Shown one piece after another: positions 718-27,589 of a stretch of 64,000 nucleotides of DNA. Position 1 is the first letter of the stretch; the number at the start of each line of letters is the position of its first letter. The DNA is from Owenia fusiformis (Eukaryota; Annelida; Polychaeta; Sabellida; Oweniidae). The notes beneath the pieces are model-generated. The model was not told the DNA's origin and searched no databases. It saw only the letters and a program-made list of their open reading frames with translations. Where the stretch lies: contig CAIIXF020000001.1 of assembly GCA_903813345.2 (NCBI GenBank), forward strand, positions 14,651,915-14,715,914. Direction: 5' to 3'. The position numbers and the translations under genes were made by a program.

Positions 718-3700
718 ATATAACACTCTTGAGATGACAAAGAGCATGAATGAACTTGGTGGGATCAGATGGCAGCTTCTGCTGTGCCTGGTACTATCTT
801 GGGTACTTGTCTTTGTATGTCTTTGCAAGGGTGTCAAATCATCAGGCAAGGTAAGCATTCAATCAATTTGAATTCTCATATTTTGTATTCAGAGCCCTAT
901 GTTCAGAGGTTTGAAGGTCTGTGTTCAGGGAGACCTTTGTTCAGCTCCCTGTGTTCCATGGTGTGAAGACCTATGGAGGAAAGTGATGTATGTAGAAGAT
1001 TTAGTTCAGAGATGCATAGGCCTAAGTTCAGAGATGCATAGGCCTAAGTTCAGAGAATCAGAGGTCTATGTTGAGAAATGAGGGACTGTGTTCAGAGGTG
1101 TTTAGGCCTGGGTTCAGAGATTTATAGGCCTAAGTTCAGAAGTGCAGAGTTCTATGTTCAGAGGTGTAGAGACCTTTGTTCATATCTTCATCTTGGTTCA
1201 GAACTTCAGCTGGGATCAGAGGTATAAAGACTCTGTGTTCAGAGGTTTGAAAACCTTTTGTGTAGAGGTTTGGAGGCCTGAGTTTAGAAGAGTAGAGACC
1301 TATATTCATATTGAAAGGGTCTCTATACAGAGATGAATATGATAATAAAAAAGTACCATATTTTGCATATGAACATGTTTAAATGAGCAGAAAATATTTT
1401 ATATTTTATATCATAAAATCTATAGAAACGTACACATGTTCTTTGGAAATAAAAAGGGCTCAAAATTTGCTTTTATTTGTCAAAGTAGTTATTTGTCACC
1501 AGACTTGAAAAAGAAATTGCTTCTAATTTCACCGGTGGGGATCTGTGCTGTCTTGTAAAACACTGGACTCTCTTGAAAATACAAGATAATACCTCTGATT
1601 ATACCCTTCTAAATTTTTTAACCATTTTTTACTTTCATTTACCTACGGAATGAAATTCTGAACAATGTTAATTTCTAAACCAACATTACATTCTAAGTCA
1701 TAAAAATTGTTGTAAAAGGTTGTTATTTTGGCACTGAGCAAAAGTGTCTTATGAATATATAATGTCTTATATTTTCCAGGTGGTCTATGTAACTGCAACT
1801 GCCCCCTATATCTTTCTAGTCATCCTCCTCATTAGAGGCCTATTATTGCCAGGAGCCATGGATGGAATAAAGTTTTATGTCACTCCAGATTTCAAAAGAC
1901 TACTTGACTACAAGGTAAAGTATGTTATAAAAGAAATATATACTAATATAAATATTGTAGATTTCCAGTACAGTAAAACCTGAATATACAGACACTTCTC
2001 TGATCAGAACACCTCCTGGTGTGAACACTTTCTCAGCCCTAAATTTGTTATCTCCCATCAACTCACATACTAGAAACCTTGAAATGTGAACACCTGCTAA
2101 TCTGAACACTTTTGACTGGTTCCAGTGCATGGTGTTTGGATTAGACAGGTTTTATAGTACATTTAAATATAAGATATATAGAGGATATCCTATGATTTTT
2201 GAGGGATACCATTTTTATCCATGAGTGGATATCGCTCATCTCCACAAGTGAGCGCAGCGAATGAGTGGAGATCGGCGATGTCCAAGAGTGGATAAAAATG
2301 ATAGCCGAGAAAATCATAGGATATCATATTTATCCAATGGTCGCTATTTTTGTATGGACTTCAAATAATTTGACCTAAAGTTGTTGTTTTCTAATTCTAT
2401 TCTATTTTTTTCATTTTATTTTCTGTGACCTTATTTTTATAAAATGATTGCATGAAAAAATGTAACTCATTTTTCCTGAGCATATAACCTTGGAACTTTT
2501 CAGATTTTTTCCAAATATTTTTTCAATTTTTTCCAAATTTTTTTTTATTCCTATAATTTTATTTTCAAATTTTTTTCCGAATTAATTTTCAATTTTTTCC
2601 TCAAAATTTCAAATTTTTCAAATATATTTTTTCAAAATATTTTTTGAAATAGTATCCGTTGGATACGATTGGATATCACGTCATATGGATCGGATACGAT
2701 TTTAGTAGCGTATATGAAAATTATCCTGTGTTGGTATCCCCATATATGTTTAGTATCCATTGGATAAATTAGGGTATGCAGTGAAATGCATATTTAAAAA
2801 TCTGAAATATTAGAATGATATTGGCTTTTGTCCTCATGCATATTCACTTTGATTTGTCAACCTAACCTTTCCCATTGGACAGGATCATGATACTATAGTA
2901 AAATGAGAGGTGTTTGCACCAACTTTCTGTTATACTGACCCAATTTAAGCTTCATTTTATAATGCAGTTCATATATATTCGACAGCTGCTCAATATTAGT
3001 TCTACATTACAGCCTGAGGTTCTTCTATAATGCATTTATGAATTTACAGTTATGAAGAAAAGAAATTTACATTTTCCCCATTATTAATATCAAATGTGGT
3101 TCAAGCCAGTTCCTTAATGATGATTACCTGTTATAACTTTTGTCAAAATGTCCATTATTGTCACTGGTGTCATTGTCAATTCACTGATATGAATTGGTAG
3201 TAATTATTGTCAGACTTATTACAATGAATATGGAATTATTTAATACCAAGCATTTTTCTATGATTTATTCCTATTGTTCTCTTTGTAATGATTCTAGTTC
3301 TAGACTAATATATGGGATAATGTGGTTCTCCAATTTCATATCTGGTCACCCTGCTCTTTATAATCTCAGAAATACTTCACAGTTTTTTGTGATAGATATC
3401 ACACAAAAATAAATTGCTCGTTTATAGATAAGCTCACACATTGCTTATGTACTGTATGAGTCTTCACTTTGTATTTGTGTTTGCAGAAAGATGAAAATAG
3501 ATGCGAAGTTAAATAGCTTAAATTCTACTGCCAATATTGTTGGATTATATAGAACAAAGATGTATTGACTCTCACTCAGTATTGAAAGACATGTCTCACT
3601 CTTTTATTTGCATTTTGAATGGAAGTTCACAAAATATTCATGCAGATATTACATGGAAATGAATAAAATGCATTTTAAGGGACCAAATCACAGATGGATT

Positions 3701-6700
3701 GTCCATTAGTTAAGAAATACATTTACTCTATTTAACCAATATTAAAAGGTGTGGGTGGTAGTATCTTGAGAATGAAATATTCATTTAGAATTAAAATTAT
3801 TATGTTGACAATTCCCAATGTGTGTATACATGCATCTCTGTGTTATAACAACCATTTGTTTGTGTTTAGGTGTGGGTAGAGGCTTGCCTACAAATATTCT
3901 ACTCCCTGGGTCCTGCCTGGGGTGGCCTAATCACAATGTCAAGCTACAACAAGTTCCACAATAATGTATACAGGTACAGACTTTAATATATCTAACATAG
4001 AGGCTACGAGGTTTTAGATATGGGGTTTATCCCAAGAGAAATATGTGTCTCTTCCTCAGTCCCTGTGGTGGAGATACATATATTTCACTCAGGATAAACC
4101 CTGTGTTTAAAACGGGACATGCATTGTACAATGGAGATGTATCCCATACCTAGTATGGTTCACTTTCATTGCCTGACATGTTGAAATGTATTAACAAACA
4201 TAAATTGAGTCTGCTAAAATGGATCAGTACTCATATTTCTCTATGAGTGCAAGATATCAGAGATAGTGGGACTGATACAGAAAATATCTGACACACTCTG
4301 GCTACTACACTAGTCTAGAATCTACATGCATTACATCATGTTACCTGCTTATACAATACGTACAATATTATATGTTGTATGATATATGCTACATGTAATA
4401 TTGGAGAAACAAAAGATAAGATATTACAAAAAAAACATGTAAAACATAACAACTAGAAATGTGACTTATAAACTTAGCATAGTTTTCACTATTTTTCACT
4501 ACAATTTGTGTCATTTTGTTTTTTCGCCATCTTTCTTTCACATAGAAAAACATTATTGTAAACTTGTTTGTAAAATATCTCATCTCTACAATCAAATATG
4601 CATCATAATAGGCTATCCTTTGGTTTCAAAGGTTAGTTGTAATTTCATATGTTAGTCGTAGAAAAGTATCAAGAATCCAAAATGGTAGTGAAGCACAGAA
4701 ATGTTTTTCTATTTATTTTAGGGATGCCATATTCGTACCTTGTGTAAACTGTGGCTCCAGTTTCTTTGCTGGTTTTGTCATATTCAGTGTCCTGGGCTTT
4801 ATGGCCAAAGAATCTGGGCTAAATGTTAAAGATGTTGTAAAACCAGGTAAGAGTAATCAATCAACCGTGGAATACTTTTTGCCTTTGATAAATGCTCATG
4901 AATTTTTATAATTTACAGCTACTGCAGTTAATGCTTGTCATAAGAATTGATTATCAAATTAATATTGATCATATCTATGTAAGCTATTGTAGATTCCAAA
5001 AAGTATGTTTTTGTCTAAATGTATATAAGCACTGTACATTTATATTTTCAATGTAAATAATGTTTTGATGTTTTTGTATTATCTTTATACTGTACATGTA
5101 CTTTTAATTTTAACCCTCTGTGTATGTTTATATACTGTTCAAAAATATGTGAAAACCTATACAGTGACCCATATGTCAGAGAGACTTACATAAAAATGGT
5201 CAATAAAAGACATATACGTGTGTGTTAACATCCTCATGGTAGAACTTGAATGTTAACTCTACAGTTGTTTGACTTATGTTCTATTCATAGTTTTGAACAG
5301 ACAAAAACAAACGTAATTTAATTATTCAATTAATCAACATAATTTATTGATATGTTCCAAAAATATGCTCCGAACCTGTGGCTTCCAACTTTAATGGAGC
5401 TAGTTAACTTGTATGACAAAATGAACAGATCTGTTTCTTTTCAATTTTTAATGCAGTTTCAGTATGTTTGCTGATCAGTTCAGATGATTGATTACAGATC
5501 ACTGATTAGAACAAATGAAGATTAAAGATCTAGAAACCCCATGCATGTTAAGATTTACTCTTTTTTACAATATTGTCTTGTTCTAAGTATTCTGAGATAA
5601 ATCTGAACTTTCTCCATAAATTCTAATCATAATACATTGGTTTGTTTTATCTACATTTTTCGAAGTCCTCAAAATCCTTTGATTGTACAATTGAAAATTA
5701 ATTGAGAAAATAATCTGAAAATTACACATAGATTTTATACTAAATGAATTGTAGAATGTACAGATTCATGGTCTAAAATGTATGTATGTCGTTCTATAAT
5801 TTACCAATTGCAAAAGTTCACCATAAAAAATGAACTCACTGATATTAATGTGTGGGTATATTCATGCGGATTATAGGTCCTGGATTAGCATTCTCTGCCT
5901 ACCCACAGGCAATCACAAAGCTCCCCATATCCCCCCTCTGGGCCGTCATGTTCTTCTTCATGTTATTAACCCTGGGGCTGGATACACAGGCAAGTATTCC
6001 ATACCGCATGTTCCCCAGTCTACTCATAGAGGCATGTCATGGGTTAATAGTTTAGTACCCAGCCAGTCTAACACTTGATTGTGGAATAATATTTAACCAA
6101 TAAGCTCATGTGTCAGATCATTGAGATTGAAAATTGTGGTCAAGGTTAGACTTTTTAGAATTTGATTTGTAAATTGTAGTACTTTGCAAAATAGACCATG
6201 GTTGTTATACTGTATTATATCATTCATGATTTGAAAATGCAGAACATATATGGCTGGTTTGAAAGCAGCCTTATTATAATGGTCTATTTCAGAAAGGAGA
6301 AAAGCTGCTTGATTAAAAGATTTAATCTTGCATTTTGCATTTGTTTGTTTAATAGCTTTATTATCCCAACGAACGAAGTTCGGTAGGGATATAGTGAAGC
6401 GTCCGTCCGTCCGGAAGATAACTCAAATACTAGTTGACGGATTTTCTTCATATTTAGTGGAATGATGTATATTGGTGAATAGTTTTACGCAAAAAATTTT
6501 TTTTCCAAGATGGCCGCCACTTTAAAAATGACGGGACTTTTTCGCAAAAATCATAAATTTTTCATTCTAAACTAAAGTAATTAATATTATTGTTTGAAAT
6601 TTTGGTAGTATATTCGCAACATCTATCTATTTCACATATATTCCGTGTTTGTCATCCTGACCCCCAGGGGCCGTGTATGGGGGGTCAGGAAAACAGAAAT

Positions 6701-9700
6701 TTTTGCTAATTTTTAGATCTTTCTGAAGTATAGCTTTATTATACTCAAATGAAAGGCAATTAAGAGTAGATTGCAAATATTATATCTTTTTTCTGATTCG
6801 AGCCTCGTAAAATTCAAAATGGCCTTCTAATGTACGATTTCGCAATAATTTTTCGATCCCTTCAAAGTATGGTTAATATATTATACTCAAATTGAAGGAA
6901 TTTTGGAGTAGATCAAAATTATGGTATTATTTTTCAGATTTGTACCTCAGAAAATTCAAAATGGCTGCTTTGCAGGAATTCGCAATTCTAAAATCTAAAT
7001 TTTTCAATTTTAAACAAAGTAATGAGTATAATTGATTGGAATTCGATAATTGATATTTTGTTCGTTGGGATTTGCTACTCCGTGGAGTTGCCATTATCTA
7101 GTTAGTTTATATCTGTCGCTGTGTTTGCTACATGTGGTGTAGTTTATTTTCGTTTTGAACAACCAGGAAAAAAAAGCTCACACTGTAGTTGTATCACTGT
7201 AATTTATTTTTGGTTTTTATTTTTGCTTAATAAATGGTCAATGCCTATAACATTTATTTATTGAAGATCAGAAAAATACTAAAAGAGATTTTATCAGGGT
7301 GGTCTGTTAGTTTTGTTTTCCAAAACATTCAATCTGTTCTCACTTCCCCTGTGCAGCTTTCTATTGCGGAGCAGATTTCAGGTTTTCTTCCCAGATTTAT
7401 GCAGAAACCTGTCCAAATTGACTTAGTTTGTGTATTGGACTGAAAAAAGTAATTTTCTTCCAGGCCCTGCCCTTGCATTTGGTGCATACCCATATGTTCT
7501 GACAAAACTACCAATTGCCCCATTTTGGTCAATTCTTTTTTTTCTGACCATCTTATCAGTTGGTGCTGATACCCAGGTAGGAATGCACAGATCTGGTATA
7601 ACAATACATACACTTCAAAGAAACACTAACAATTGGCAATCAGGAAGTGATGTCATCGACTCTCAACTTTGCATATAACATTAGGCAAGGAGCTATTAGG
7701 ATTACTAAACCAGCTGAATATTTTTTTCAATTTGGTCTATGATTAAAATCCTTTTGATGGTCTCTTCTTTAGTTCTAAGTTGACGACTCCTGAAAATATT
7801 TTTACACAGAAGATAAGAGCTTCTTGTTTAGAAGTGATTTTGTACTTCTTTCCTATACTGTAATAGACAAGGTTATAACAGGTGAGAGTCGATGACATCA
7901 CTTCCTGAAAGAAATCTGAAAAGATGGCAGCTTACTGGGAATTAGTACTACATTTTTAAATGTTCAATATTGACCATATGAAATCGTTTTCCCGCGTTTT
8001 GCTAAATATGTAAAGTATATATATGATTGTAGCTACCATATCAGGAGAGAGATAGTCTGGCAAGGAATGTTCCTTTAAGTTGAGCAAATGAGGGTCAACA
8101 AAGATTGAATAAAGCTATTTGTCACAGGGTTTTAATACACCATTAGAAAAGGGAAGGTGTTAGGAAGGATATTATTACAAAAGTCAGCTTCACCTTTCAA
8201 ATGGTATATAAGAACCTAGGACAAATTGAGTAATTTTTTTCTCATGGACTTAAGTTTTTATGTCAGTGGTTGGCGGTTGGTGGTTGACGATCGGCGTCTT
8301 TGACAAATTCTTGCAACTTCCAATAACTTAACAATTACTGTTTAGACTGACTTCAATTTTTTTTCAAAATCATCTACCGTATTTGCCGTGATTGGTGCCC
8401 GGGCGCTTAAAGTAAGTCAAAACAGTTCAAAAAGTTCTCCTTATTAGCGCCCATATGAGTCCCGATGAGAAAAATGCCGGAGTTTCAGTTTCAGTTTAGA
8501 AAAAAATTGGAAAAAAAATTTGTTTCATGAAATTCGCCATGTTTGCATGAATCGTAGGGTTCTTGCCTATCCTACTCTTTTCGGAACACTAGTGGAATAT
8601 AAAACATGTACTTACATCAGTATTTTACTCGATAATTCGATAGGAAAACGATATAAACCCACGGAATCGAATACTTCCGTTTCAATTTCTTCTCAGCCTC
8701 GTTTTGAAATTTTCAACACAAACTGAACGAGGTGGCAAGATTACAGGGAAAATCACCGGTAAACATCAAAATATTGGATATATACTTGAGTTACCAACAT
8801 TATATACATTTTATGGTGAAAAGAATGTCATATTCAAGCTGGAATACCTTTTGGAAAAGGTATATGTTTTTAGAAGTTCAAATCTGACTTATATTTAAGA
8901 TTTGACCTTCAATGACCTTTTCAAGATCAAAAAAAGTCAAAAAGTTTTTTTTTAACTTGCTTCAAATTGACATTTTTTTCAAAATCATCTGCAAGTTATC
9001 AGTAGTTCAAATCTGACTTTTAATTTGAGATTTGACCTTCAATGACCTTATCAAGGTCAAAAAAGGGCTTTGTATAAAAACCTCATACCTTATACCCACC
9101 TACCCACGTATGTGGGACATGATACAGTCTTTGAAGGGTTCAATTTTGAAGATCTTAGTTTATTAAAGATGCATTTGTAACGACCCTTGATAGCAAGTTG
9201 CTACTACATCCCAGCTGGGTTCGATTCCCACTCGGGGCATCAAATTTAGCACATTTTTTTCAGTTTCTTTATCTTGCTTGTTGGACCTATGCTTGAGTCG
9301 TTAGTTATTTATTCCCCTGGGACACCCTCGGGTCATTACACATTTAAATGCATCCATATTCCTTTATTTATGGATCTGTCTAGTCATAAAATAAAGCCTG
9401 AATTGTAGAAATGTTGATAATTTGAGCTATTTTGAGATTTAATAGTCTTTAAAATTGAACCCTTCAATGACTGTATCATGTTCCATGTAGGTGGGTATGA
9501 GGTAGGAGCCCGAAAAGGTCAAAAAGGTCTTTTTTCAACTTGCTTCAAATTGACCAATTTTTTTTTCAAAATCATCTACAAGTTCTCAACAGTTCAAATC
9601 TAACTATAGATTTGACCTTCAATGACATTCTCAAGGTCAAAAAGGTATTTTTTCATCTTGCTTCATTTTGACCAACTTTTTTTTTCAAAATTATCTACAA

Positions 9701-12700
9701 GTTCTTAGAAGTTCAAATCTGACTTCTGAGATTTCACCTTCAATGACCTTCTCAGTTTCAAAAAAGATTTGACCTTCAATGACCTTCTCAAGGTTAAAAA
9801 AGGTCAAAAAGGTCTTTTTTCAACTTGCTTCAAATTGACCAATTTTTTTTCAAAAATCATCTACAAGTTCTCAGAAATTCAAATCTGACTTAAGATTGAA
9901 CTATTGTGAGCATCTAGGTGGTGACATTTTGTTATGTTAATGCCTTGTTTAGGTCTTTGGGAGATCAACTATTTATTCATTTCCAGGCAGCAAGTTTACA
10001 GGAGTTTTCATTTCTCATATGACCAAATCGGATTCAGCCATCTTTACTTATGCATGTACCTAACTTTCAATCTATGAAGTCACATTGCAATATATTGTGA
10101 CTCTTGGTAGTGTCCCTTGAAGCTGAATGCAACTTGAAACACTTTTGAGTCAATTTATAGTGCAGTCACTTACATGACCTTTATGTCTCACACTCTTTCA
10201 GTACATTTTGAACTCACATGATTATTATATCCAGTATTATCCCATTCAAGGAGTTTTGTTATGCATATCCATGTATATTCAAATATATTAATTGCAGGAC
10301 CTGGTTTAGCATTTGCAGCATACCCGTTGGCACTTACTACATTACCCATCTCACCTTTTTGGTCAATAATGTTCTTTGTAATGCTCTTGACTCTTGGTCT
10401 TGATACCCAAGTGAGTATTTGAACCTTGTTTGGTAAGTGAGGGCATAAGTGAGTTCATTTAGCTAAGTCCACAACCTATACATGATTTTGTGTTTGCACT
10501 GTTGGATTCACTGTTCCGTTCTCAGGCCCGTAGCCAGGGCGGGTTTGGGGGGTTTGAGCAAACTCCCCTCCAGGCCAAAAAATTCTTTCAAAATCAAGCA
10601 GTTTTTTCCCCATTCTGAGCACTTTTCAAGTGATTTTGGCCATTTTTAGGACAAAGTTGTCAAAAATGTTCCCCCCTTTGCAAAAGCTGGTTATTGGGCT
10701 GATTCTTCAGCTAAATCTGTATGATAAATTAATAATTTTGATTAATTTATGATTTAATTTAATGACGAGTCCATATGATAATTACAGGACTTACGAACAA
10801 TGGTGCCACTCATTATATCCCCAATGAATTTTTACTGTAATTCCATTTTTAGTATATTGTTAGAAAAACTATTGTCTTATGCTAAAACCTGTGTCTTTGC
10901 AATATATTCGTTTGTTAGGATAAAAAGATACAAGGAATTCCTGTAGGATTGATTGATAGGATTTAGAATATCATTTTGAAAAACATTGAAGCATGATTTT
11001 TAAAACGAAATACTGCATTCTTTATTGAAGGACCCCAGGGCTCAATGAATTGTGGATGTCATTTTTGACTTCTGTATTATTCCAGAAGTCAGCTTTCAAA
11101 GTCTCACCTTTCAAATGGTATATGTGTTTTCTATAATTTGTACATATTAAAAATGAATAATGTTGAACAACTCCTTTTCCCATCACGATGACCACGCCCC
11201 TTTGTCTCGCAAATGACAGATGGACTTCTTGATCATATTAGAAATATATTAATTGCAGAACCTGGTTTAGCGTTTGCAGCTTACCCATTGGCACTTACTA
11301 CATTACCCATCTCATCTCTCTGGTCAATTATGTTCTTTCTAATGCTTTTGACCCTTGGTCTTGATTCCCAAGTGAGTATTTGAACCTTGTTTGGTAAGTG
11401 AGGGCATTATGTAGTTCATTTTTGGGGTCTGTAGGAGAACTCCAACTAGACAGAGCATTCAGTCTCAAATGTTTTGGAACAGACAAAATCTAGTCTCAGA
11501 ATCCATAAGAGTGTCACTGGATAAAACACTATTTTTCAATAATAGTCATAAGAAGGAAATAAAGATATGTACTACTTGATCATATTGAAAATATATTAAT
11601 TGCAGGACCTGGTTTAGCGTTTGCAGCTTACCCATTGGCAATTACTACATTACCCATCTCACCTCTCTGGTCAATTATGTTCTTTCTAATGCTTTTGACT
11701 CTTGGTCTTGATTCCCAAGTGAGTATGTGTACCTTGTTTAGTAAGTAAGTCTACCACCACATGATTTTATGTTTGCACACTTCGATTCACTGTTCTGGAG
11801 CTAAATCTGTATGATTTACTGTGAGTCCATTTGAAACTTTCAAGCTGTCTTAATGGTGACACTTCAGCCACACTGCATCGAGGCTTGGGCTTGAATTATT
11901 TTAACACATTGCAAAATATTTTCTATAAAATCACCTAAAAGATACAAAATCACTAAAAGATATTTTCAATGAAACTTTTTGCGAGGGTCAAGTATTGGAA
12001 AACTCATTTATTACATTTATTCCAATTTTAGAATATTGTTGGAAAAATTGTCTTATGCTGAAACCTGTGTCAGCAATATTCATTTGTTTGGATAAAAATA
12101 CCAGGAATTCCTGTTGGATTAGTAATCATTTTAATCCACACCATTATGGAAACTTTGAAGCAAGATTTTTAAAATGAAACACTGCACTCTTGTTTAAAGG
12201 ACCCCAGGGCTCAATGAATAGTGGATGATTTTAAAATGAAAATCCAATATATAGACCTTCAATAAAGATTAAAGACACGAATTGAAGACTATATAAAATA
12301 CATTGAATCACACACAATTCAATTAGTCAATAAATTTTAATTCTTTTCACACATATAGCAAAAGATTTTGGACAATTAAACATAAAAAAATGAAATTCAA
12401 CCAGAAAAGCCATACTGTTTTCTGATTGGCAGAGAATGGAATGTGATTTGTCACTTAATTTAATTCAATTTATTCAAATATTTAATTCAATCATTATGTT
12501 TACAGAATTTATTGATATAACAGGTGGCACCACATGTGATGCATATACCCGTACATATAGTTGTGAAATCATGTAGTATATCAAATCTAAGTTGTCAAGG
12601 AATTGAACCAGAATGAAATCACAAAAATTAGGTTGAAAAGATGATATTTAGTGATTCCCAATGCCTTTTTCACTGGCAATACTGTCCATAATTTGGATTT

Positions 12701-15700
12701 AATTACCTCACCCAGGGCCTAGGGGTGTAGAGAGGCCATTCATTATTTTCTCCTTGGTCTGTCTGGGCGATAACTCAAATAGAAGTTGACAGATTTGGTT
12801 CAAAGGACGATTCTCGGTTTGGAACTGGGCTAATAATTTTTTTCATTAAAAATATAGAAATATTACCCAAATTAAACTATGAATATTCAAAAGAGGACAT
12901 TTAAATCTACAAGATGTAAAAATAACAAATTGGTCTGAAGCAGGGATAACCCTCAATTAGACCGATTCAATAAAATACAAGTCTCGATTTGGGGAAAGAA
13001 GTTCATCAGTGTACTGCGCTAATATTTTTTTGCGAAAAATCGAGAAATATTACCCAAATTAAATTATGACTATTCAAAAGAAGACATTCAAATCTATATT
13101 ATGTAAAAAAAATCAAATTTGTCCGAAGCAGGGATAATGCTCATTTAGATTGATGAACTTCGTTCTCCAAACCGAGAATCGTCCTTTACAGGCCGATACC
13201 TAATGGGTTGTCAGATTTGGTTTAAATCATATACTTTACCGTATGTTATTATGCTAGTGTACTGTATGTAATTTTTATGCTAATATACGTGATTTTATGC
13301 GTTTGTATGTGATTTTTATGTCACCACCAAAAGTGGTGACATATTGTTATGGTCTCCGTTTTTTTGTGACGGCGTCCGGCGGTTGGTGGTTGGCGTCCGG
13401 CGTCCGGCGGTTGGCGGTGGGCGTCCGGCGTCTGTAACAATTTCTTACAACTTCCTATAACTTAACAAATACTGTTTAGACTGACTTCAATTTTTTTCTA
13501 AATCATCTACATGTTCTCAGAAGTTCAAATCTGACTTTAGATTTGACATTTGACCTTCAATGACCTTCTCAAGGTCAAAAAGGTCTTTTTTCAACTTGCT
13601 TCACATTGACTAATTTTTTTTTCAAAATCATCTACATGTTCTCAGAAATTCAAATCTGACTTTAGATTTGACATTTGACCTTCAAATCTGACTTTAGGTT
13701 TGACATTTGACCTTCAATGACCTTCTCAAGGTCAAAAAAGGTCAAAAAGGTCTGTTTTCAACTTGCTTCAAATTGACTAAATTTTTTTTTCAAAATCATC
13801 TACGTGTTCTCAGAAGTTCAAATCTGACTTTAGATTTGACATTTGACCTTCAATGACCTTCTCAAGGTCAAAAAAGGTCAAAAAGGTCTGTTTTCAACTT
13901 GCTTCAAATTGACTAAAAAAAATTTTCAAAATCATCTACGTGTTCTCAGAAATTCAAATCTGACTTTAGATTTGACTTAAGATTTGACATTTGACCTTCA
14001 ATGACCTTCTCAAAGTCAAAAAAGGTCAAAAAGGTCTTTTTTCAACTTGCTTCAAATTGACTAAATTTTTTTTTCAAAATCATCTACATGTTCTCAGAAA
14101 TTCAAATCTGACTTTAGATTTGACATTTGACCTCCAATGACCTTCTCAATGTCAAAAAAGGTCAAAAAGGTATTTTTTCATCTTGCTCAAATTGACTAAA
14201 TTTTTTTTCAAAATCATCTATATGTTCTCAGAAATTCAAATATGACTTTAGATTTGACATTTGACCTTCAATGGCCTTCTCAAGGTCAAAAAAGGTCAAA
14301 AAGGTCTGTTTTCAACTTGCTTCAAATTGACTAAAAAATATTTTCAAAATCATCTACGTGTTCTCAGAAATTCAAATCTGACTTTAGATTTGACTTAAGA
14401 TTTGACATTTGACCTTCAATGACCTTCTCAAAGTAAAAAAGGTCAAAAAGGTCTTTTTTCAACTTGCTTCAAATTGACTCATTTTTTTTTCAAAATCATC
14501 TACATGTTCTCAGTAATTCAAATCTGACTTTAGATTTGACATTTGACCTTTAATGACCTTCTCAAGGTCAAAAAAGGTCAAAAAGGTCTATTTTCAACTT
14601 GCTTCAAATTGACTAAAAAAAAATTTCAAAATCATCTACGTGTTCTCAGAAATTCAGATCTGACTTTAGATTTGACTTAAGATTTGACATTTGACCTTCA
14701 ATGACCTTCTCAAAGTCAAAAAAGGTCAAAAAGGTCTCTTTTCAATTTGCTTCAAATTGACTAAATTTTTTTTTCAAAATCATCTACATGTTCTCAGAAA
14801 TTCAAATCTGACTTTAGATTTGACATTTGACCTTCAATGACCTTCTCAATGTCAAAAAAGGTCAAAAAGGTATTTTTTCATCTTGCTTCAAATTGACTAA
14901 ATTTTTTTTCAAAATCATCTACATGTTCTCAGAAATTCAAATATGACTTTAGATTTGACATTTGACCTTCAATGACCTTTTCAAGGTCAAAAAAGGTCAA
15001 AAAGGTCTTTTTTCAACTTGCTTCAAATTGACTAATTTTTTTTTTCAAAATCATCTACATGTTCTCAGAAATTCAAATCTGACTTCAGATTTGACATTTG
15101 ACCTTTAATGACCTTCTCAAGGTCAAAAAAGGTCAAAAAGGTCTGTTTTCAACTTGCTTCAAATTGACCAAATTTTTTTTTCAAAATCATCTACATCTTT
15201 TCAGAAGTTCAAATTTGACTTTACAAGTTCTCAGAAACTCAAATCTGACTTAAGTTTGAACTCATAATATTGTGAGCAACTAGGTGGTGACATTTTGTCA
15301 TGTTAATGCCTTGTTATTAATTGCTTTAATCACATTGCATATTATTTTAATACACATACTCTCAATGGTCTAAGGATTACAAAATATATAAAGGTCGACT
15401 CAACTTTTAAATTGAGCTCATATGCCAGGTTTTTCTGGTATTGAGATCATGGCTTGATAAGAAGAAGTATAGGTTCTGGTTGTATGAATGAATGCTATCT
15501 AGAACATCACTTATCACTTATGCAATCACTTGTAAGACCATGGTCTTGTAAATAGGTATATCAGGTGATACACTTCACCTTTTCATGTTATTATGTCACC
15601 ACCAGAACTGTTATAGTCTCCAACCTTTTTGTGGCTGGTGTTTGATGTTCAGCATCTGTAACAAATGGAAGGTGGTGACATTTTGCATGTTAATGCCCTG

Positions 15701-18700
15701 TATATAATACTACAGGGTGTGCCAAAAAACGGCACTTTTTTTCAAGACACTATAACTTTTTTATTTTCAAACCAACATACCCATGGTGACATATTTTATT
15801 CATATAAAAGTGTATAATTCATGATTCATGGCTAGATAACAACCTCAAGTTTCATTTGCTATGCAAATTATAATTTTTTATTAAAAATTAAAAAAGTTAT
15901 AGCATTTTGAAAAAAAAGTGGCGTTTTCTTTTTTTGGCTCACCCTGTATATATGTTTGCTTTTTGCCTTGCATGCATCATATTACACGCACTAATCTCTG
16001 CAAAGCACATCTACTTTGTATTACTAATAAGTTGTTTTAATTTATTGGTTACTGTACATATATAAAGTGATTGTTTATTTGTCAACAATTTGAATTTCAA
16101 ATCAACATTTTCCAATTTCATACTTGCACAGGGTGTGTATCAAATTAAGCGTGACAGTTGAACATGCGTGGTAGGGTACAACACGAGGGTGATGAAATTT
16201 GAGCAAACTGATGTTTTTATCTTTTCAGAATGATCTGGTCTAGTTTTTAGATATTTTTTATATGTAAATGTCTGTAACAACATCCTAGACCGTGAACTTG
16301 ACAGTGAATTTCATAGTTCAAACTCCCAATGTACGAGGTATAACGCGTGGTAATGGTAAGGTACAACACAAACAATTTGAATTTGTGTTCTACAGTATAT
16401 CAGGTAAATTTACCTGAGCGTTATACCGTATACTATATTGGGAGTTTGCATAGGTTTAATTATGAAATTCACTGTCAACTTCACTAGCACTGTCAAGGAT
16501 GTTGTTACAGACATTTACATATAAAAATATCTGGATACGATGAAACATCAGTTTGCTCAAATTGCATCACCCTCATGTTGTACCTTACCTGTTTGTTCAA
16601 CTCTTATGCTTGGTACACACCCTGTGTACTTGGGTTTATATAATTCACCACCCTACCTTCCATACTTGGATTTTCATTTAGTTTAAACATTACCAACTAT
16701 TCTTAATAGTTGTATAATAATTATTATTAATAGATTATGAAGAGAATAATTTCTGTAAAATGATTCTGTTTCAGGACTCAACATTTTTGCAATTCAATTA
16801 TATTTTAACTTTTACATTAGAAATTAAATTTCTATTAATTTTAAAACTATTGTTAGCAGGGGATATTCGTTAGCAGGGGATATTCTCAATATACTGGGAA
16901 TCTGACGAGCCTGTTTCTAGGTAAGGAAACTCTGTAAAACTATCACAGGATACTGAGTAAAATCACCCCTACCTCTCTCTGGATCGAAAATGGAGGTCTG
17001 CGTTCAGTATTTCCAGTTGTACCAGACGAAAATACTGGACGAGTTTCTATCCCCTGCTAACAATAGTTTTAAAGAAGAAGAAGATCGTAAATGAAGATTT
17101 TGTTTTTTCTATGATTCATAAGGCGCTTTTACAAAAAAAGGTAAGTGGGACCATCAACAAATACTTAAGACTCCATGTACTGTATGTATATATGTTCATA
17201 GACTAAACACTCATATATACTCATCTATTTTCAGTTTGGTATGTTTGAGACTCTTACAAGTGCTTTTGTGGATGAGTTCCCTGGACTGCTAAAGGGCAAG
17301 AAGTTACGATTCACAATATTCATTTGTGTCATACAATTTTTAGCAGGATTGATATTCATAACACGGGTGAGTTACTTTGACAACCTAAAATAATAGCCAT
17401 GCAGTTCAATGTGTACAGAATTAAAGCAAAATATAAAAATCCAGTATTCAACACAAAGCCAGGCTCATGTATTCATTTGAGACTAGCATTATTTTTTAAG
17501 TGTTGACTTAAGTGTTTTTCGTTACATATTTTAAAAATGATATTTTCTCCAAAAGAGTGATAATACTGTAGTTCCCACTTTTTGAGGTTTTGTACATTTT
17601 TACTGTGCATCTGCAGTATCTGATGGATGGAAAGGAAATAAAGATGAAAAGATGCACTGTTGCTTTATAATACGTATGATGTGCCATATATTCTATTGTT
17701 GTATCTAAATAGCATTTTTCTTTAATGATATGCCATTCTAAAGATCCGGCCTGTTTGTTTCCATCCATCTGGCCAAGTGCTAGATTGTACCTATTAGTTA
17801 CATGTTTTATGATATCATGGTCTGTGACTGATCGAGACATTTATTTTCTTTTTCAGGCTGGAATATATTTCTTTGTTTTATTTGACTGGTACTCAGCAGC
17901 TTTCTCAGTAATGGTTATCTCTTTGCTGGAGTGTGTCGCTGTTGCATGGGTATATGGTGAGTCTATACATCCTTAACCTTGTGTGGTCAAATAAAATAGT
18001 AATTGCTATGGTAGATTAATTCCAGCAAACATTTATAATGCCCACTCATATCATTTATAGTTCAGCCCATATTAATAAGAACCCATTAGGAAGAAGGAAA
18101 GAGGTACATTTAATATATATTTTCTATCAATAAAATCTGTTCTTATTTCCAGGGGTGGATCGCCTATACTATGACATTGAACTGATGATTGGTTATAAGC
18201 CCTCCATTATCTGGAAAGTTTGCTGGCGTTTTATTACCCCTATAATTATGTTGGTAAGTTCCATGTTTTAGAATAACATTCTAATAATTCAAGGTCATCT
18301 TTCCAAACAGGGTCAAATTTAATGTCCAAAGACAGATGGTGCAAGGGGTGTCGTGCAAGGCGCCATACCCAGATTACTGTTGAGGCAGTTCTTTACTCAA
18401 AATTTTACATCTCTACATGTTTTCTCCCTGAAATAAATAATAATGGGGTGAAAAATAACTCCTTATATAGTCATGCATGCTCTCCACATGATAAATAAAT
18501 CTATAATATATAATGTACAAGCAATATATTTTAAACAATGTATACAAACTATACACATAAATGCTCCATCTTATTCAGGTAATCTTAGGGTTTACAATAG
18601 GCACAATGAATGAGCCAAAGTATGGAGATTACACATTACCACGTTGGGCTATTGCTCTCGGATGGTGTGTTGCTATGGTTTCTATTATACCAATACCTGG

Positions 18701-20964
18701 AATTGCTATTTACAAGATCATAAAGGAGAAAGGAACACTTCGTCAGGTTTGTTCACTTTCATTTTATCTCCAAGGAGGATTGGGTGCCAGGACCGAAACT
18801 CAATATTTTCCAACAATGAAATCGTCGAAATGTTGTTATTTTCTGAAATTATAACCGACTATAAATTCAAAATGAACAGTTCATAAGATTCGAACCAATA
18901 TCTCGATCATTTCTTGTGAATTTTGGAATTTGTTGTTAGGAAATAAAACCAAAATTTGTGATTCAAATGTTGAAGTGAACAAAATTATAGCTGCTGTTTG
19001 AATTCGAATTTTGTATCACGACATGAATATTTATAAACAGTAAAACCGGTCTAATTGGAACACCTTTGGTACCTCTGAAAAGTGTTCCACTTGGGAGGTG
19101 TTCCATTTATAAAGGTTCATTTAACATTAAATCAGTTGGTCTTGGGACTTTGAAAAGTGTTCCACTAACAGAGGTCTTCAATTTACAGGTTTCACTGTAG
19201 TTCAAATATAATACTATGTACACATATATATACATAACATCAGGGCTTTCAACTTGTGACCATCTAACATGAGGGGGGTAGGTGTAAATATTTTTGAAAC
19301 AAATGCGTGATATATACACATATTTTGTACCAGATGTGTGACATAAACAGCAATCGCGTGCAAAGACCGAACGGAATGCGTTCGCTTTTTTTCGCCATTT
19401 GCTTTTTTACCGTGTCAGCATTTCACAAAAAGCGATTTTTAAAAATATCAACAAAATGCGTGATTTGCGTGATATTTGATCATACACGCTAAATTGATGC
19501 GTGATTTCTATTTTTCCAGCAAATGCGTGACAATCACACCTAAAGCGTGAGGGTTGACAGGGCAGTAACATATACTGTAGACCTTTGAAACCATGTACAG
19601 TAATTACAATAATTAGAGGAGCAAGAAATATAACAGACAAGTTGAGATTATTTCTTAACAATTATCACAATTTTTCGATATATGTCTTGTTCATAAAATG
19701 GCTCGCCTGTTTTGAACTTGTACATTTCTTTTTTCAATTCTAATGAATATTTCTGCATCTTGAATCTTCAGGGAATTCTTATTTTCAGAATGACGATTGT
19801 GAAGGCAGCATCGACAATTGACATTTTTTGAAAAGTTTACTTCCAACATATTCATGCCCAGTGATTAGACAACTGGAATAGAGGGTACTGTCAATTTCTG
19901 CTAAGAAATTCAACAAATCTGGAAGATTCATTTTTTCAATAGAAAGTTTACTGCTGAATTGCCTAATGGATAGGCACACTGTATGGTAAAATATGTTAGG
20001 ACTTCTAGGATTTATTTTTTTAATTGATACGCTTCTAAGATACAAGATCTATTAAAAAAGGTGCAAGGCCATCAATGAGCACAAGTAAATGTTTTTGCTA
20101 TAAATCAAGTCTACAGTCATGATTTGTAAAAAATACTTGTAAGTGACGTTATCATAACAAAAGTTATGCCATTGCTGACTTTACAAATATGTTTCCAACA
20201 TTGTAAAAAATAATCAAAAATAATTAGAATGGGACGGAGGGGGAGGCAATGGAGGGGGAGGGAGTAATAATAAGGTGGAACAAAACACAAAATCTTGTAT
20301 TAGTAAATGAAACTGGTTGTTTATAATGTATGTAATGGAAACTTATATTTTATAAAGTCAGCAAAAGCATTCATTTTGTTATGGCCTCACTTACATGTTC
20401 TTATTACAGGATGCGAAGACCATTGTAGCTTGATTTATAGCAGAAACACTGTCTTGTGCACGTTGGTGGCGTTGTGCCTTTTTCATAGATCTTGTATCTT
20501 ATACACGTATTGATTCCCAAAAAATCCTATAGGACCAAACATATTTTACCATACCGTACACCTATCCAGTAGGCAATCCAATAGTAAACTTTCTCTTGAA
20601 AAAATAAATCTTCCAGATTTGTTGAATTTCTAGTAGAAATTGCCTGCTCCCCCGTCCCATTTTTCCGACCACCATGCGTGATGTTTCCAACTCTTTGTAT
20701 TTTTTGCTGGCTTGGACCATAGTTCAAGCCAGCACAAGCCTTTTCACAATATAACTTTCAAAATGATTTTTTTAGAGGCTCTGGAAGTTGACCCGACCAG
20801 AGGATGATTGGGGTCCAGCATTGCAGAAATATCGCAAGACCTATAAATACAGCAAAAACTATAATTCTGCAAATAATGGAGAGCTCCACAATCTATACCC
20901 TGTTACAACGACCATAAATACAGGAATTACTCCACCAACTAACGACAAAGTAGATAATGTATAG
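718..20964 (+). CDS. SLC6 sodium/chloride-dependent transporter, glycine-transporter-like (3' part of gene, TM4 to stop)
   Basis: Plasma-membrane symporter of the neurotransmitter:sodium symporter family, moving an amino acid or related solute with Na+ and Cl-. Exons: 718-850 (TM4, ends KGVKSSGK), 1780-1914 (TM5, LLPGAMDG and TPDFKRLLD), 3870-3973 (TM6, [20 protein letters not shown]), 4722-4846 (TM7), one of five alternative 113-nt exons (EL4 to early TM8), 17235-17366 (TM8 end, [16 protein letters not shown]), 17857-17956 (TM9-10), 18153-18253 (TM11 start), 18579-18746 (TM11-12) and 20776-20964 (cytoplasmic tail, TAG). All phases agree and give 432 residues with one cassette. The [14 protein letters not shown] segment of TM6 resembles glycine transporters (SLC6A5/SLC6A9), but substrate is inferred only. 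TM1-3 exons must lie upstream of the window; I see none in 1-717. No frameshift or internal stop is present. Confidence 0.93.
895..1335 (+). repeat. Degenerate minisatellite in SLC6 intron
   Basis: Short degenerate tandem units built on gttcagag plus ggcctaag or gacctatg. The cleanest part is a 22-bp unit (gttcagagatgcataggcct plus aa) repeated near 1006-1050. It starts about 45 bp after a splice donor. Confidence 0.6.
1971..2157. mobile_element. CAGTAAAACCTG MITE, copy 1
   Basis: TA-flanked element starting CAGTAAAACCTG and ending acaggttttatag, with internal gtgaacacc-type repeats. It belongs to the family also seen at 19038, 25329, 30003, 35763 and 52635. The TA target and CAG ends suggest a Tc1/mariner/pogo-type non-autonomous element. 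Confidence 0.7.
2181..2327. mobile_element. Fold-back element, copy 1
   Basis: Two inverted arms of about 65 bp (gaggatatcctatgattt on the left; aaatcataggatatc on the right) around a core containing gtgagcgcagcgaatgagtg. A relative lies at 37943-38089 with the same arms and core. The flanking AT-rich block to about 2790 may belong to a larger element. Confidence 0.65.
5877..5989 (+). CDS. SLC6 alternative exon copy A (EL4/TM8 cassette, GC donor)
   Basis: First of five tandem versions of the same exon. It supplies 2 nt completing a Gly codon plus 37 codons: PGLAFSAYP, then [12 protein letters not shown], then TM8 start ending TLGLDTQ. The acceptor is a weak ttatag with little pyrimidine tract. 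The donor is GC (CAG|gcaagt), unlike the GT donors of the other four copies, though the rest of the donor matches consensus well. It joins in frame to 4846 upstream and 17235 downstream. Confidence 0.9.
6364..7101 (+). mobile_element. Helitron-like non-autonomous element
   Basis: It starts TCCCAACGAACGAAGTTCGG just after an A and ends CTAG just before a T. A short hairpin (ACTCC-GT-GGAGT, 7077-7088) lies 9 nt before the CTAG end. A subterminal inverted match (ttgttcgttggga, about 7059-7072) mirrors the 5' end. TC start, CTRR end, 3' hairpin and A/T insertion are the known Helitron hallmarks. There is no coding capacity. It lies in the intron between cassettes A and B. Confidence 0.65.
7464..7576 (+). 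CDS. SLC6 alternative exon copy B (most divergent EL4/TM8 cassette)
   Basis: Same length and phase as the other copies, with a strong acceptor (ttcttccag) and donor gtagga. It reads [21 protein letters not shown] and ends [10 protein letters not shown]. It has Ala for the second Gly of GPGLAF, Ala for Ser in LPIAP, and SVGADT in place of TLGLDT at the stretch that aligns with the Na2 site. The frame is open and the intron flanks are unrelated to the other copies, so it is an old copy kept intact. Confidence 0.88.
7641..7907. mobile_element. MITE with perfect 25-bp terminal inverted repeats
   Basis: Left end 7641-7665 begins CAGGAAGTGATGTCATCGAC and right end 7883-7907 is its exact reverse complement. 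The 267-bp element has no coding capacity. It lies 64 bp downstream of cassette B's donor, in an SLC6 intron. Confidence 0.75.
9064..9512. mobile_element. MITE inserted in the tandem-unit transposon
   Basis: Inverted arms of about 60 bp: cctcatac...acccacctac...catgatacagtc...tgaagggttcaatttt on the left, and the reverse complement on the right (ending gtgggtatgaggtaggagcc). The SINE at 9180-9347 lies in its middle. Confidence 0.65.
9180..9347 (+). mobile_element. tRNA-related SINE, copy 1
   Basis: Contains a good RNA polymerase III B-box (gggttcgattccc, 9219-9231), then ggcatcaaatttagcac, and ends near ccctcgggtcattaca. The same order occurs on the opposite strand at 46262-46437, where the tRNA-Lys-like head is clearer. 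The head here is decayed. Confidence 0.5.
10298..10410 (+). CDS. SLC6 alternative exon copy C
   Basis: Open 113-nt cassette with acceptor attgcag and donor gtgagt. It reads [21 protein letters not shown] and ends [10 protein letters not shown]. Exon and nearby intron sequence are closely related to copies D and E, for example the shared acceptor context atatattaattgcag and the downstream stretch aaccttgtttggtaagtgag. It keeps Thr at the Na2-site position, like A and B. Confidence 0.9.
10524..10702. mobile_element. Insertion present in duplicate C but absent in E
   Basis: Begins caggcccgtagccagggcgg and ends near gctggttattgggctgattc, a degenerate inverted match. The paralogous sequence after cassette E (around 11790) runs from ttcactgttc directly to gctaaatctgtatgat with no such block. 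The comparison identifies this as an insertion after the duplication, or a loss from the E copy. Confidence 0.55.
11259..11371 (+). CDS. SLC6 alternative exon copy D (Gly to Glu at the junction codon)
   Basis: Open 113-nt cassette nearly identical to C and E. Its first two bases are AA, so the codon completed with the G from the upstream exon is GAA (Glu) instead of Gly, giving EPGLAF. It also has Ser-Ser where the others have Ser-Pro or Ala-Pro (LPISSLW), and ends TLGLDSQ with Ser at the Na2-site position. Donor gtgagt, acceptor attgcag. Confidence 0.88.
11606..11718 (+). CDS. SLC6 alternative exon copy E
   Basis: Last of the five cassettes, 234 bp after copy D. It reads [21 protein letters not shown] and ends [10 protein letters not shown], with donor gtgagt. 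The 5.5-kb intron that follows, before the common exon at 17235, is full of transposon copies. The downstream flank resembles that of copy C, including the segment ggaccccagggctcaatgaa. Confidence 0.9.
12802..13187. mobile_element. MITE with perfect 22-bp terminal inverted repeats
   Basis: Left end AAAGGACGATTCTCGGTTTG (22 bp, 12802-12823) is mirrored exactly at 13166-13187. The interior holds two similar ~170-bp direct copies built on gaaatattacccaaatta and gaagcagggataa. Confidence 0.7.
13318..15315 (+). mobile_element. Tandem-unit transposon, 13 internal units
   Basis: The head has a palindrome (gtcaccaccaaaagtggtga plus c) followed by ttatggtctccg and a ggcgtccggcggttgg block. The body is 13 copies of a unit marked by catctacatgttctcagaa at about 13511, 13635, 13803, 13940, 14078, 14221, 14358, 14503, 14639, 14788, 14922, 15058 and 15194, mostly 134-149 bp apart. 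The tail is ctaggtggtgacattttgtc...taatgcc. The layout (fixed ends, variable tandem core) resembles the pearl/Helentron-associated elements described from bivalves; that link is inferred from structure only. Confidence 0.75.
15592..15702 (+). mobile_element. Tandem-unit transposon, unit-less short copy
   Basis: Head tatgtcaccaccagaac with gttatagtctccaac, and tail aggtggtgacattttgcatg with taatgccctg, with no internal ~140-bp units. It shows the two ends can exist without the array. Confidence 0.65.
15713..15946. mobile_element. TA-flanked MITE with CAGGGTG ends
   Basis: Left end cagggtgtgccaaaaaacgg with actttttttcaa...ctataactttttta; the right end is the inverted counterpart, ending ggctcaccctg. 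Flanked by TA on both sides. Arms about 55-60 bp, imperfect. Confidence 0.7.
16127..16626. mobile_element. Long inverted-repeat element (~500 bp)
   Basis: Ends CACAGGGTGTGTA (16127-16139) and its exact reverse complement (16614-16626). Much of each half is inverted relative to the other, including the catcaccctc, cagtttgctcaaat, atgttgttacagacattta and caatatgggagtttg-type blocks. The element can fold on itself over most of its length. Confidence 0.65.
16845..17068. mobile_element. TTAA-flanked element 1
   Basis: TTAA at 16841-16844 and 17069-17072. Terminal inverted repeats AACTATTGTTAGCAGGGGAT on the left and the reverse complement on the right (atcccctgctaacaatagtt). 224 bp, no coding capacity. 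TTAA target duplication is typical of piggyBac-type transposases. Confidence 0.75.
19038..19197. mobile_element. CAGTAAAACCTG MITE, copy 2
   Basis: Starts cagtaaaaccggtctaat and ends acaggtttcactg followed by TA. Interior has gaaaagtgttccact repeated in the same direction. Lies in the last SLC6 intron. Confidence 0.65.
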
Positions 20965-22519: not shown

Positions 22520-22539
22520 CTAGGGCATCACCCATATAT

Positions 22540-23260
22540 GGGGAAACACAGATATATTGGGAAACACAGATATATAGGGCAGCTCAGATAAAAGGGGCAG
22601 CACAGATATATTGGGCAACACAGATATGTGGGGCAGTTCAAGTGAAAGGGGCAACACAGATATATTGGGCAACACAGATATGTGGGGCAGTTCAAGTGAA
22701 AGGGGCAACACAGATATATTGGGCAACACAGATATGTGGGGCAGTTCAAGTGAAAGGGGCAACACAGATATATTGGGCAACACAGATATATAGGGCAGCT
22801 CAGATAAAAGGGGCAACACAGATATATTGGGCAACACAGATATGTGGAGCAGTTCAAGTGAAAAGGGCAACACAGATTTATGGGGCATCACGGATAAAAG
22901 GGGCAACACAGATATATTGGGCAACACAGATATGTGGAGCAGTTCAAGTGAAAGGGGCAACACAGATATATGGGGCATCACGGATAAAAGGGGCAACACA
23001 GATATATTGGGCAACACAGATATGTGGAGCAGTTCAAGTGAAAGGGGCAACACAGATATATGGGGCAAAACAAATATATTAAGTATCACAGATATAGGAG
23101 GCAATACAAATATATGGGGCATCAAAGATATGTGGGGAAAGTTAGTATATGGAACAGCAAACATATAAGGAGCAACACAGATATGTGGGCAACAGATATA
23201 TGAGAGCACCACAAATATATAAAACAACACAGGTATGTGGTCCAACACAGATGTGAAAGA
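22540..23260 (+). repeat. Minisatellite of 18-bp units in a 54-bp higher-order repeat
   Basis: Basic unit gggcaacacagatatatt (18 bp) with variants ending atgtg and a cagttcaagtgaaag version. Three variants form a 54-bp block whose cagttcaagtg copies start at 22634, 22688 and 22742. The array decays toward 23260. Because 18 is a multiple of 3, long open frames appear on both strands; these are not proposed as genes. Confidence 0.85.
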
Positions 23261-25970: not shown

Positions 25971-27387
25971 TCAGCCAGACATACATTTCTTGAGCAGTTC
26001 CTTTGCACTTTGTGGCAGCATAACAATAGAGCCGGGTTTATTGGCCTTTGTTAGTCGCAGTTGAAAACCTTCCTTGCCCTCTAATAGGTGTCGCTCTTTG
26101 TTCCAAGAGAACAAAGCTCCATCTGTAGTCTCAAGGAAAGGATTAATTTCAATAACCCAGATTTTTTCCTCTGAAATCAAAATTTATGAATATTATAATT
26201 GATGCTTGATTATAAAAAATAAAGCGGCAGTAACAGATATTGTCACATTTTGTGAGTATCGAGTCATTGAATAAATACCCCCCCCCCCCCTTCATTACTT
26301 TGAAACTGGAAATCCACATAGAAATTGTGTTAAAGCATATTTATGTTCGAATCTTAATTTTGTTTGTAATGTAGATTACAACATGTTGAAACAGCCAAGG
26401 CTCTAACATGTTGTTCTAAGGGGACTTCCAATTGCCAAACTTTTGAGGGGGGGGGGGTGTATGCCTGGTATGTGTCAATCATTTTTTAGACTCACCTGTG
26501 GAATTATTACACACTGCAAAGTCAATCACATAATCATGAGGGAAGTTTTTCTGTTTCATCTTCTCTTTGATAGATTTGTCAAAAAATCTTTGAATCCTCT
26601 CAGATATTTGTTTGCCTTCTTTCAATAGTCTCCCGGAAAATATCAGATAATTGTACTGAGACAGTGCCACGAGGTCATGCTCAAAAACAAAACCACGAAA
26701 TTCCATATCTATGTCAATATCAATGAATTTTCTAATGACAAAGTTTTCATTAAATCTCTCCGGGTTGTCCCTGGCTAATGTGAGGTCTTGATAAATGCGA
26801 AGACTCCTTAAAAACATATCAAAGACTTCTTCAGCCGAATGTATCCGCTGCGCCTCAAATGCTGCTGTTAATAACGCAGATATCTGAGAATTTTCAGAAT
26901 TGTCTCGACAAGTATTGATTGTCTTTTTAAAAATATCAACAAATCTTTTCTGCACTAATGGGGCATCTTTAGCACTCCTGCTTGATGTCTTCACAAAAAC
27001 ATCAGATCCCTCTTTGACAAATTCATCAATTTTTGATTGCAAGCGATTCCTCAAAATTTCCACTTGCTTGACTTCTTGTTCATTTAAACCATCTCTCCAA
27101 TCTATACCAGCAATTTTTGACTCATCAATATCCTTATAAAGTCGTTCATATATCTCTATAAATAAATTTGCATCCTCTTTTGTTATTTCACAGTATTTTG
27201 TAGGGAATGTTTCCTCTTTGAGAATATCAACCCAAAGTTCTGTGTTAACATCTAAAACGCTATTCTGATAGTCAGATATTTCTTGTTCACTGATAAACCC
27301 TCCAAGTTTTGGGTTTGAGAAATCAGAGGTGGGTTTGGCGGACTTCTTCAACTTGATTGCTTTCAACTGTTGTTCCAGGCTTGCCAT
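25971..27387 (-). CDS. D123/CDC123-family ATP-grasp protein, CDC123-like
   Basis: CDC123 (D123 family) is an ATP-grasp fold protein; the canonical member binds eIF2gamma and assists assembly of translation initiation factor eIF2. Two coding exons on the minus strand: 26496-27387 and 25971-26170, joined phase 1 (ACAG|gtgag, ttcag|AGGAA), giving 363 aa. Visible family marks are FVKTSSRSAKDAP (residues ~132-144), the MEFRGFVFEHDLVALSQ strand (~228-244) and the VIEINPFLETTDGALFSW block (~303-320) with the Asp/Glu-Asn metal and nucleotide ligands of the fold. The start is ATG at 27387. A TTG six bases upstream keeps the frame but is not a eukaryotic start, and ttcag at ~27397 suggests a 5' UTR intron. 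Compared with canonical CDC123 the sequence is divergent (FVKTSSRS) and nearly intronless, so it is probably a paralogue. Its cellular role is not proven. Confidence 0.87.
26278..26456. repeat. Poly-C and poly-G runs in the D123-gene intron
   Basis: A run of about 13 C (around 26278-26290) and a run of about 10 G (around 26445-26455) lie 155 bp apart in the same short intron and could pair in the transcript. Homopolymer length may also be affected by sequencing. Confidence 0.5.
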
Positions 27388-27589
27388 AGTCAAATGATCT
27401 GAAATTCATAAATGTTCCCAGTTTAGGTAGATTACACAGTCTATTCACTTTTATATTATTTCCACAGTATGTTATCCTATTCACCACTAAAATACCTGTC
27501 CTTCAATAAACATGTACACTGTAGTGCTTACATCAAATATCCATACCATCCCTCAATTCAGTTAGGCTAGTTTGTACTACAATTTAGTC

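Follow-up and report, generated by a model that had tools for sequence, protein, structure and literature searches.

Variants of exon 4 of SLC12A1 (NKCC2) alter ion affinity along the nephron, in a family and a protein segment different from those considered here. We analyzed five tandem exons (hereafter cassettes) of an SLC6 transporter gene of the annelid Owenia fusiformis, contained in a window of 64,000 nucleotides (C1:14651915-14715914, where C1 is contig CAIIXF020000001.1), together with the 498 Mb of the genome in which we searched for related exons. The likeness to SLC12A1, which is named in passages of PMC9741552 that also mention its third mutually exclusive exon, lies in the presence of mutually exclusive tandem exons in a membrane transporter, three copies there versus five here. 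The tandem arrays of metazoan MRP (ABCC) genes, SLC25A3 and SLC39A14 likewise involve mutually exclusive exons in transporter genes, but none of these belongs to SLC6 (passages of PMC6071210 and PMC5740500), and SLC25A3 and SLC39A14 are the sole SLC genes named in the main-text passages of the human survey PMC5740500. Clusters of the Dscam type, which rely on docking and selector sequences, share the choice of one exon from several, although the Dscam exon 6 cluster has 48 copies (passages of PMC6071210) versus five in the Owenia gene.

In open-licence full texts we found no case of mutually exclusive exons in an SLC6 gene (subscription papers and supplements lie outside this scope, and an earlier description is possible). 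This agrees with the original prediction, made from the letters of the window alone, which knew of no SLC6 gene with a five-way choice at this position. Gene architecture of this kind is known; for the SLC6 family we found no earlier report of it. Judging from the sequence, the locus is likely to be a cluster of mutually exclusive exons in a gene for an SLC6 amino-acid transporter, because the five exons have equal length, compatible phase and homologous products, form one clade, and leave the reading frame open only when included singly. A cluster at the adjacent exon of a second SLC6 gene also counts in support of this reading.

A cluster of five equal exons

The five cassettes, all of 113 nucleotides, lie between two single-copy exons, the first ending at position 4846 (donor CCAG/GTAAGA, with the slash at the exon end) and the second starting at 17235 (Table 1). 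All five are open, without a stop in any of them, and are entered in phase 1 and left in phase 0. Their acceptors are invariably AG, and their donors are CAG/GCAAGT in cassette 1, CAG/GTAGGA in cassette 2 and CAA/GTGAGT in cassettes 3, 4 and 5, that is, four GT and one GC. The motif P(G/A)LAFxAYP...LPI...W...D(T/S)Q recurs in every cassette, and the amino acid identity among them ranges from 57.9% to 92.1%. When we compared the cassettes with the window by tblastn, five strong matches were returned, with no sixth cassette among the matches listed (E below 0.01). The original prediction had placed five open 113-nucleotide exons, each with an acceptor and a donor, between two single-copy exons, and had described the motif PxLAFxAYP...LPIxxxW...D(T/S)Q in all copies; exons and motif are found exactly where it put them. 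It had left unmentioned the GC donor of cassette 1, the peculiarity of cassette 4 and the existence of a second gene.

Passages of PMC3228551 characterize mutually exclusive clusters by exons of similar length, with compatible splice sites and reading frame, encoding homologous segments, exactly one of which enters each transcript. The five cassettes are of similar length, have compatible splice sites and frame, and encode homologous segments. Every product with a single cassette is open (five out of five). Skipping all cassettes leads to a stop within five codons of the junction, and an early stop also occurs in all 10 double, all 10 triple and all 5 quadruple products, as well as in the product with all five. 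Because only single inclusion keeps the frame open, usable mRNA, at least, is restricted to one cassette at a time. The introns between successive cassettes measure 1474, 2721, 848 and 234 nucleotides; judged on these lengths and on the terminal dinucleotides (GT or GC, and AG), no steric or U2/U12 incompatibility is apparent, which argues against exclusion through steric hindrance or intron type. Each isoform scores between 132.8 and 151.9 bits against the profile PF00209, and the score is 60.7 bits when the segment is deleted. At the sequence level, length, phase, homology, the common clade and the single-inclusion frame all support the mutually exclusive architecture that had been proposed.

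The first 21 kb of the window contain, on the plus strand, most of one GlyT/ProT-like SLC6 gene. Ten exons of the window, with cassette 1 among them, can be joined into one uninterrupted frame that ends in a stop; their acceptors are AG and their donors GT or GC, and the joined exons match the profile PF00209 (E 2.2e-124). Upstream of the window, at C1:14628460, 14633286 and 14650907, are the exons of the same gene for transmembrane helices (TM) 1 and 2 and for TM3 with extracellular loop 2 (EL2), respectively. The gene thus has the exons from TM1 to TM12 in addition to the profile match, both of which place it in SLC6, and spans approximately 44 kb from TM1 to the stop. Among the solved relatives that bear a precise name, human GlyT2 (SLC6A5; E 5.2e-121) and the sodium-dependent proline transporter (1.9e-119) are the closest, and two chains whose only label is 'Transporter' have slightly better scores. 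The human members are not known to have more than a single exon at the site of the cassettes.

History and constraint of the cassettes

A search of the genome with the TM8 exon returned 43 matches, five in the window and 38 elsewhere, the latter being one per gene judging by their spacing. We retained 35 of them as paralogs and left out C5:32069988 (truncated), C3:29914950 (no AG there) and C7:11032328 (one codon longer). The acceptor position is common to all 35 paralog exons; GT is found at the donor place in 31 of them and is missing there in four, and none has the GC that cassette 1 carries at this site. Because the paralogs share its acceptor (35/35) and donor (31/35) positions, what was duplicated is a single exon ancestral to the family. 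A tree of 40 exon peptides, the 35 paralogs included, places all five cassettes in a single clade (99/94) on an alignment of only 38 columns, and resolves most other forks poorly. Position 7 is S, G or A in the cassettes, and V or I in 33 of the 35 paralogs, with L and E in the other two.

The copies differ in age. DNA identity is 89-97% among cassettes 3-5, which also share flanking intron blocks (183-243 nucleotides, 79-93% alike) that mark them as recent tandem duplicates. The likeness of cassettes 1 and 2 to the other copies ends within about 20 nucleotides of the exon edges. To measure constraint, we relied on the ratio of nonsynonymous to synonymous divergence (dN/dS), which is 0.11-0.13 between cassette 2 and cassettes 3, 4 and 5, and 0.20 between cassette 3 and cassettes 4 and 5; between cassette 1 and the others, silent sites are saturated and dN is 0.12-0.32. 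We also simulated neutral evolution for five of the ten pairs under a simple model, with as many substitutions as observed placed randomly (20,000 runs per pair). An open frame together with a protein identity no lower than the observed one was reached in none of the 20,000 runs for pairs 1-5, 2-3 and 1-2, and in 2% for the recent pair 3-5. Cassettes 1, 2, 3 and 5 look constrained at the protein level, and no such sign is seen in cassette 4.

Several observations weigh against mutually exclusive use of the whole cluster. The dN/dS between cassettes 4 and 5 is approximately 1, resting on four differences, and this pair, the youngest, gives no evidence of constraint because 60% of neutral simulations match its identity. 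The first residue of cassette 4 is E, and G in the other four cassettes and in all 35 paralogs. The start codon of the gene, which is readable from TM1 to the stop, was not located. Finally, we scanned for docking and selector pairing in this one genome by comparing 40-nucleotide windows of the introns 4847-5676 and 11919-17030 with 200 nucleotides on either side of every cassette (587 real and 300 shuffled windows). With only these flanking introns taken as docking sites, no signal above the shuffles was found: the best worst-of-five energies were -20.7 and -22.8, versus shuffled minima of -23.5 and -23.0, and a GC-rich stretch near 13370-13440 is among the top-scoring windows. The cluster may differ in this from Dscam, and from MRP1, which is among the insect genes with competing RNA pairing (passages of PMC6071210).

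The recent copies lend themselves to another explanation, according to which one or two cassettes are used and the rest, chiefly 3-5, are recent or decaying duplicates without regulated choice. The high DNA identity of cassettes 3-5, the behavior of the pair 4-5 and the G to E change in cassette 4 all fit it, as do the donors of cassettes 3-5, which outscore only 4 of the 31 paralog donors. However, cassettes 1 and 2, both old, are constrained against each other and against cassettes 3 and 5; no cassette has a stop, and the AG and GT or GC ends are all retained. We consider this explanation improbable. Even less credit is due to a dosage switch, in which co-inclusion or skipping would yield unproductive mRNA and lower expression. 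The premature stop in every non-single product examined would serve such a switch, yet it needs no protein-level constraint on each copy and cassettes 1, 2, 3 and 5 do look constrained. An assembly artefact, for example through repeated haplotype pieces, is the least credible of all, as nothing specific speaks for it apart from copies 4 and 5 lying in 183-nucleotide blocks that are 93% alike, whereas all copies differ, the flanks of 1 and 2 cannot be aligned and the genome search gives a single locus.

On the mutually exclusive reading, the exon for extracellular loop 4 (EL4) and outer TM8 was duplicated in tandem inside the gene, with cassettes 1, 2 and the parent of 3-5 as the older copies and cassettes 3, 4 and 5 as the recent ones. 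Each mRNA would be expected to take one cassette, and zero or multiple cassettes introduce a premature stop and would presumably cause loss through nonsense-mediated decay. The choice among cassettes would most likely depend on tissue- or stage-specific splicing factors, and what sets the resulting isoforms apart is probably not their substrate but the kinetics of the gate, the dependence on sodium or the response to modulators.

The variable segment of the transporter

We aligned the query protein to the 797-residue GlyT2 chain 9wbr (equal lengths, offset 377; the printed alignment, with another GlyT2 chain, is gap-free), and cassette positions 1-38 correspond to GlyT2 residues 542-579. The assignment of the segment to EL4 and TM8 in the original prediction therefore stands, and the reach to the Na2 site that it also claimed is plausible: near their end, all five cassettes have D followed by T or S, which we take to be Na2 ligands. 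Position 38 is Q in every cassette and presumably faces the substrate. Since this Q, the aspartate and the threonine or serine are retained while EL4 and outer TM8 vary, we infer that the isoforms would tune the gate and its modulation instead of changing the substrate.

In GlyT2, residues I545 and Y550 are placed in EL4, and P561, W563 and L569 in TM8 (passages of PMC6797481); the extracellular gate closes as EL4 moves into the vestibule (passages of PMC8602798). According to passages of PMC6797481, the GlyT2 mutations Y550L, P561S, W563L and L569F lower the sensitivity to an acyl-amino acid without significant change in the half-maximal effective concentration (EC50) of glycine, I545L weakens the action of lipids, and E552A and F562L behave like wild type. 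The counterparts of Y550 and W563 are retained in all five cassettes. The P561 counterpart is S in cassette 4, a natural match of P561S, and that of L569 is F, L, V, L and L in cassettes 1 to 5, which makes cassette 1 a natural match of L569F. Passages of PMC8602798 list R556 and R531 among the residues of the GlyT2 lipid head-group site, and the counterpart of R556 is K, K, T, T and T in cassettes 1 to 5. A role of the cassettes in lipid modulation is weakened because the I545 counterpart is L in all five, the R531 counterpart in the window gene is S, and the positions of E552 and F562 vary among cassettes, though E552A and F562L had no effect in GlyT2.

A second SLC6 gene and other features

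By searching the genome with the TM7 exon, we found another SLC6 gene at C7:6126500-6136499 (locus L013) with four tandem TM7 exons of 125 nucleotides. These four are 79-100% identical to the query copy, and any other match reaches at most 63% (41 matches in all). In pairwise comparisons their dN is 0.07-0.26 and their dS 1.1-2.2, with the pair 1-4 saturated; the copies are thus under constraint. All four single-copy products are open through the next exon, an early stop occurs in all six double, all four triple and the quadruple products, and when all copies are skipped the frame is shifted but meets no stop within the next exon. The counterpart of GlyT2 R531 is K, K, R and T across the four copies. 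In gene order, the exon multiplied in this gene directly precedes the one multiplied in the window gene.

Overall, 116 exon matches fell into 38 clusters, in nine of which the overlap on the query exceeded 20 amino acids, and two of these are real exon repeats, namely the window gene and the gene on C7. The seven other overlapping clusters were taken, from their ranges, as neighboring exons read through into introns. The exon search scored the best candidates only, so that repeat loci number at least two and further copies elsewhere are possible. We put forward only as a tentative and rather doubtful idea that two SLC6 genes on different chromosomes independently evolved multi-way switches at adjacent exons of the EL4 gate, which would tune gating and allostery, possibly through the lipid site.

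The genome has many SLC6 genes, some of them grouped at C2:24.7-25.3 Mb and at C5:31.9-32.07 Mb; within each group, one pair of TM8 exons is identical in protein. A third SLC6 gene (L014, C12:454500-460499) has at 4097-4683, between its TM7 and TM8 exons, an 83-bp tandem repeat of 7.1 copies. The repeat unit is the 3' half of a TM7-like exon with its donor, and some copies contain stops; the repeat resembles an exon amplification that either failed or is just beginning.

Table 1. Exons of the window gene (positions in the window) and TM7 copies of the second SLC6 gene (positions in C7:6126500-6136499)
Feature	Position	Strand	Remarks
TM4 exon	718..850	+	homology match and joined frame
TM5 exon	1780..1914	+	homology match and joined frame
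TM6 exon	3870..3973	+	homology match and joined frame
TM7 exon	4722..4846	+	125 nt; single copy in window gene; ends phase 1 before cluster
Cassette 1	5877..5989	+	113 nt; GC donor
Cassette 2	7464..7576	+	113 nt; most divergent, long branch in tree
Cassette 3	10298..10410	+	113 nt
Cassette 4	11259..11371	+	113 nt; young, without sign of constraint against cassette 5
Cassette 5	11606..11718	+	113 nt
Next single-copy exon	17235..17366	+	end of TM8 and TM9 (helix labels approximate); starts phase 0
Exon of ~TM10	17857..17956	+	homology match and joined frame
Exon before and into ~TM11	18153..18253	+	homology match and joined frame
Exon of ~TM11-TM12	18579..18746	+	homology match and joined frame
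Last coding exon, with stop codon	20776..20964	+	homology match and joined frame
Second gene, TM7 copy 1	2630-2754		
Second gene, TM7 copy 2	3166-3290		
Second gene, TM7 copy 3	5175-5299		
Second gene, TM7 copy 4	5452-5576		

Elsewhere in the window, the intron after the cluster hosts a 136-bp tandem array of about 11 copies (13681-15223), and blocks that resemble it by eye lie between cassettes 2 and 3 (8860-9900). Two consecutive frames at 57979-59924, the first matching reverse transcriptase (PF00078) and the second without a Pfam match, are likely a remnant of a long interspersed nuclear element (LINE). A 304-amino acid open frame on the minus strand (26479-27393, a single frame) matches D123 (PF07065) over residues 98-289, and a 344-amino acid open frame on the plus strand (62269-63303) has two sub-threshold matches to C2H2 zinc fingers. 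The stretch at 22520-23248 is repetitive and open in several frames, with no sign of a gene, and Rfam gave no matches in the window.

Should the cassettes be in use, the transporters made from this one gene would form a natural series in which nothing but the outer gate changes. With such a series, the contribution of EL4 and outer TM8 to transport rate, ion coupling and modulation could be tested directly, in a family to which major drug targets belong. Clusters at adjacent exons of two paralogs would suggest that selection has repeatedly favored the tuning of this protein region.

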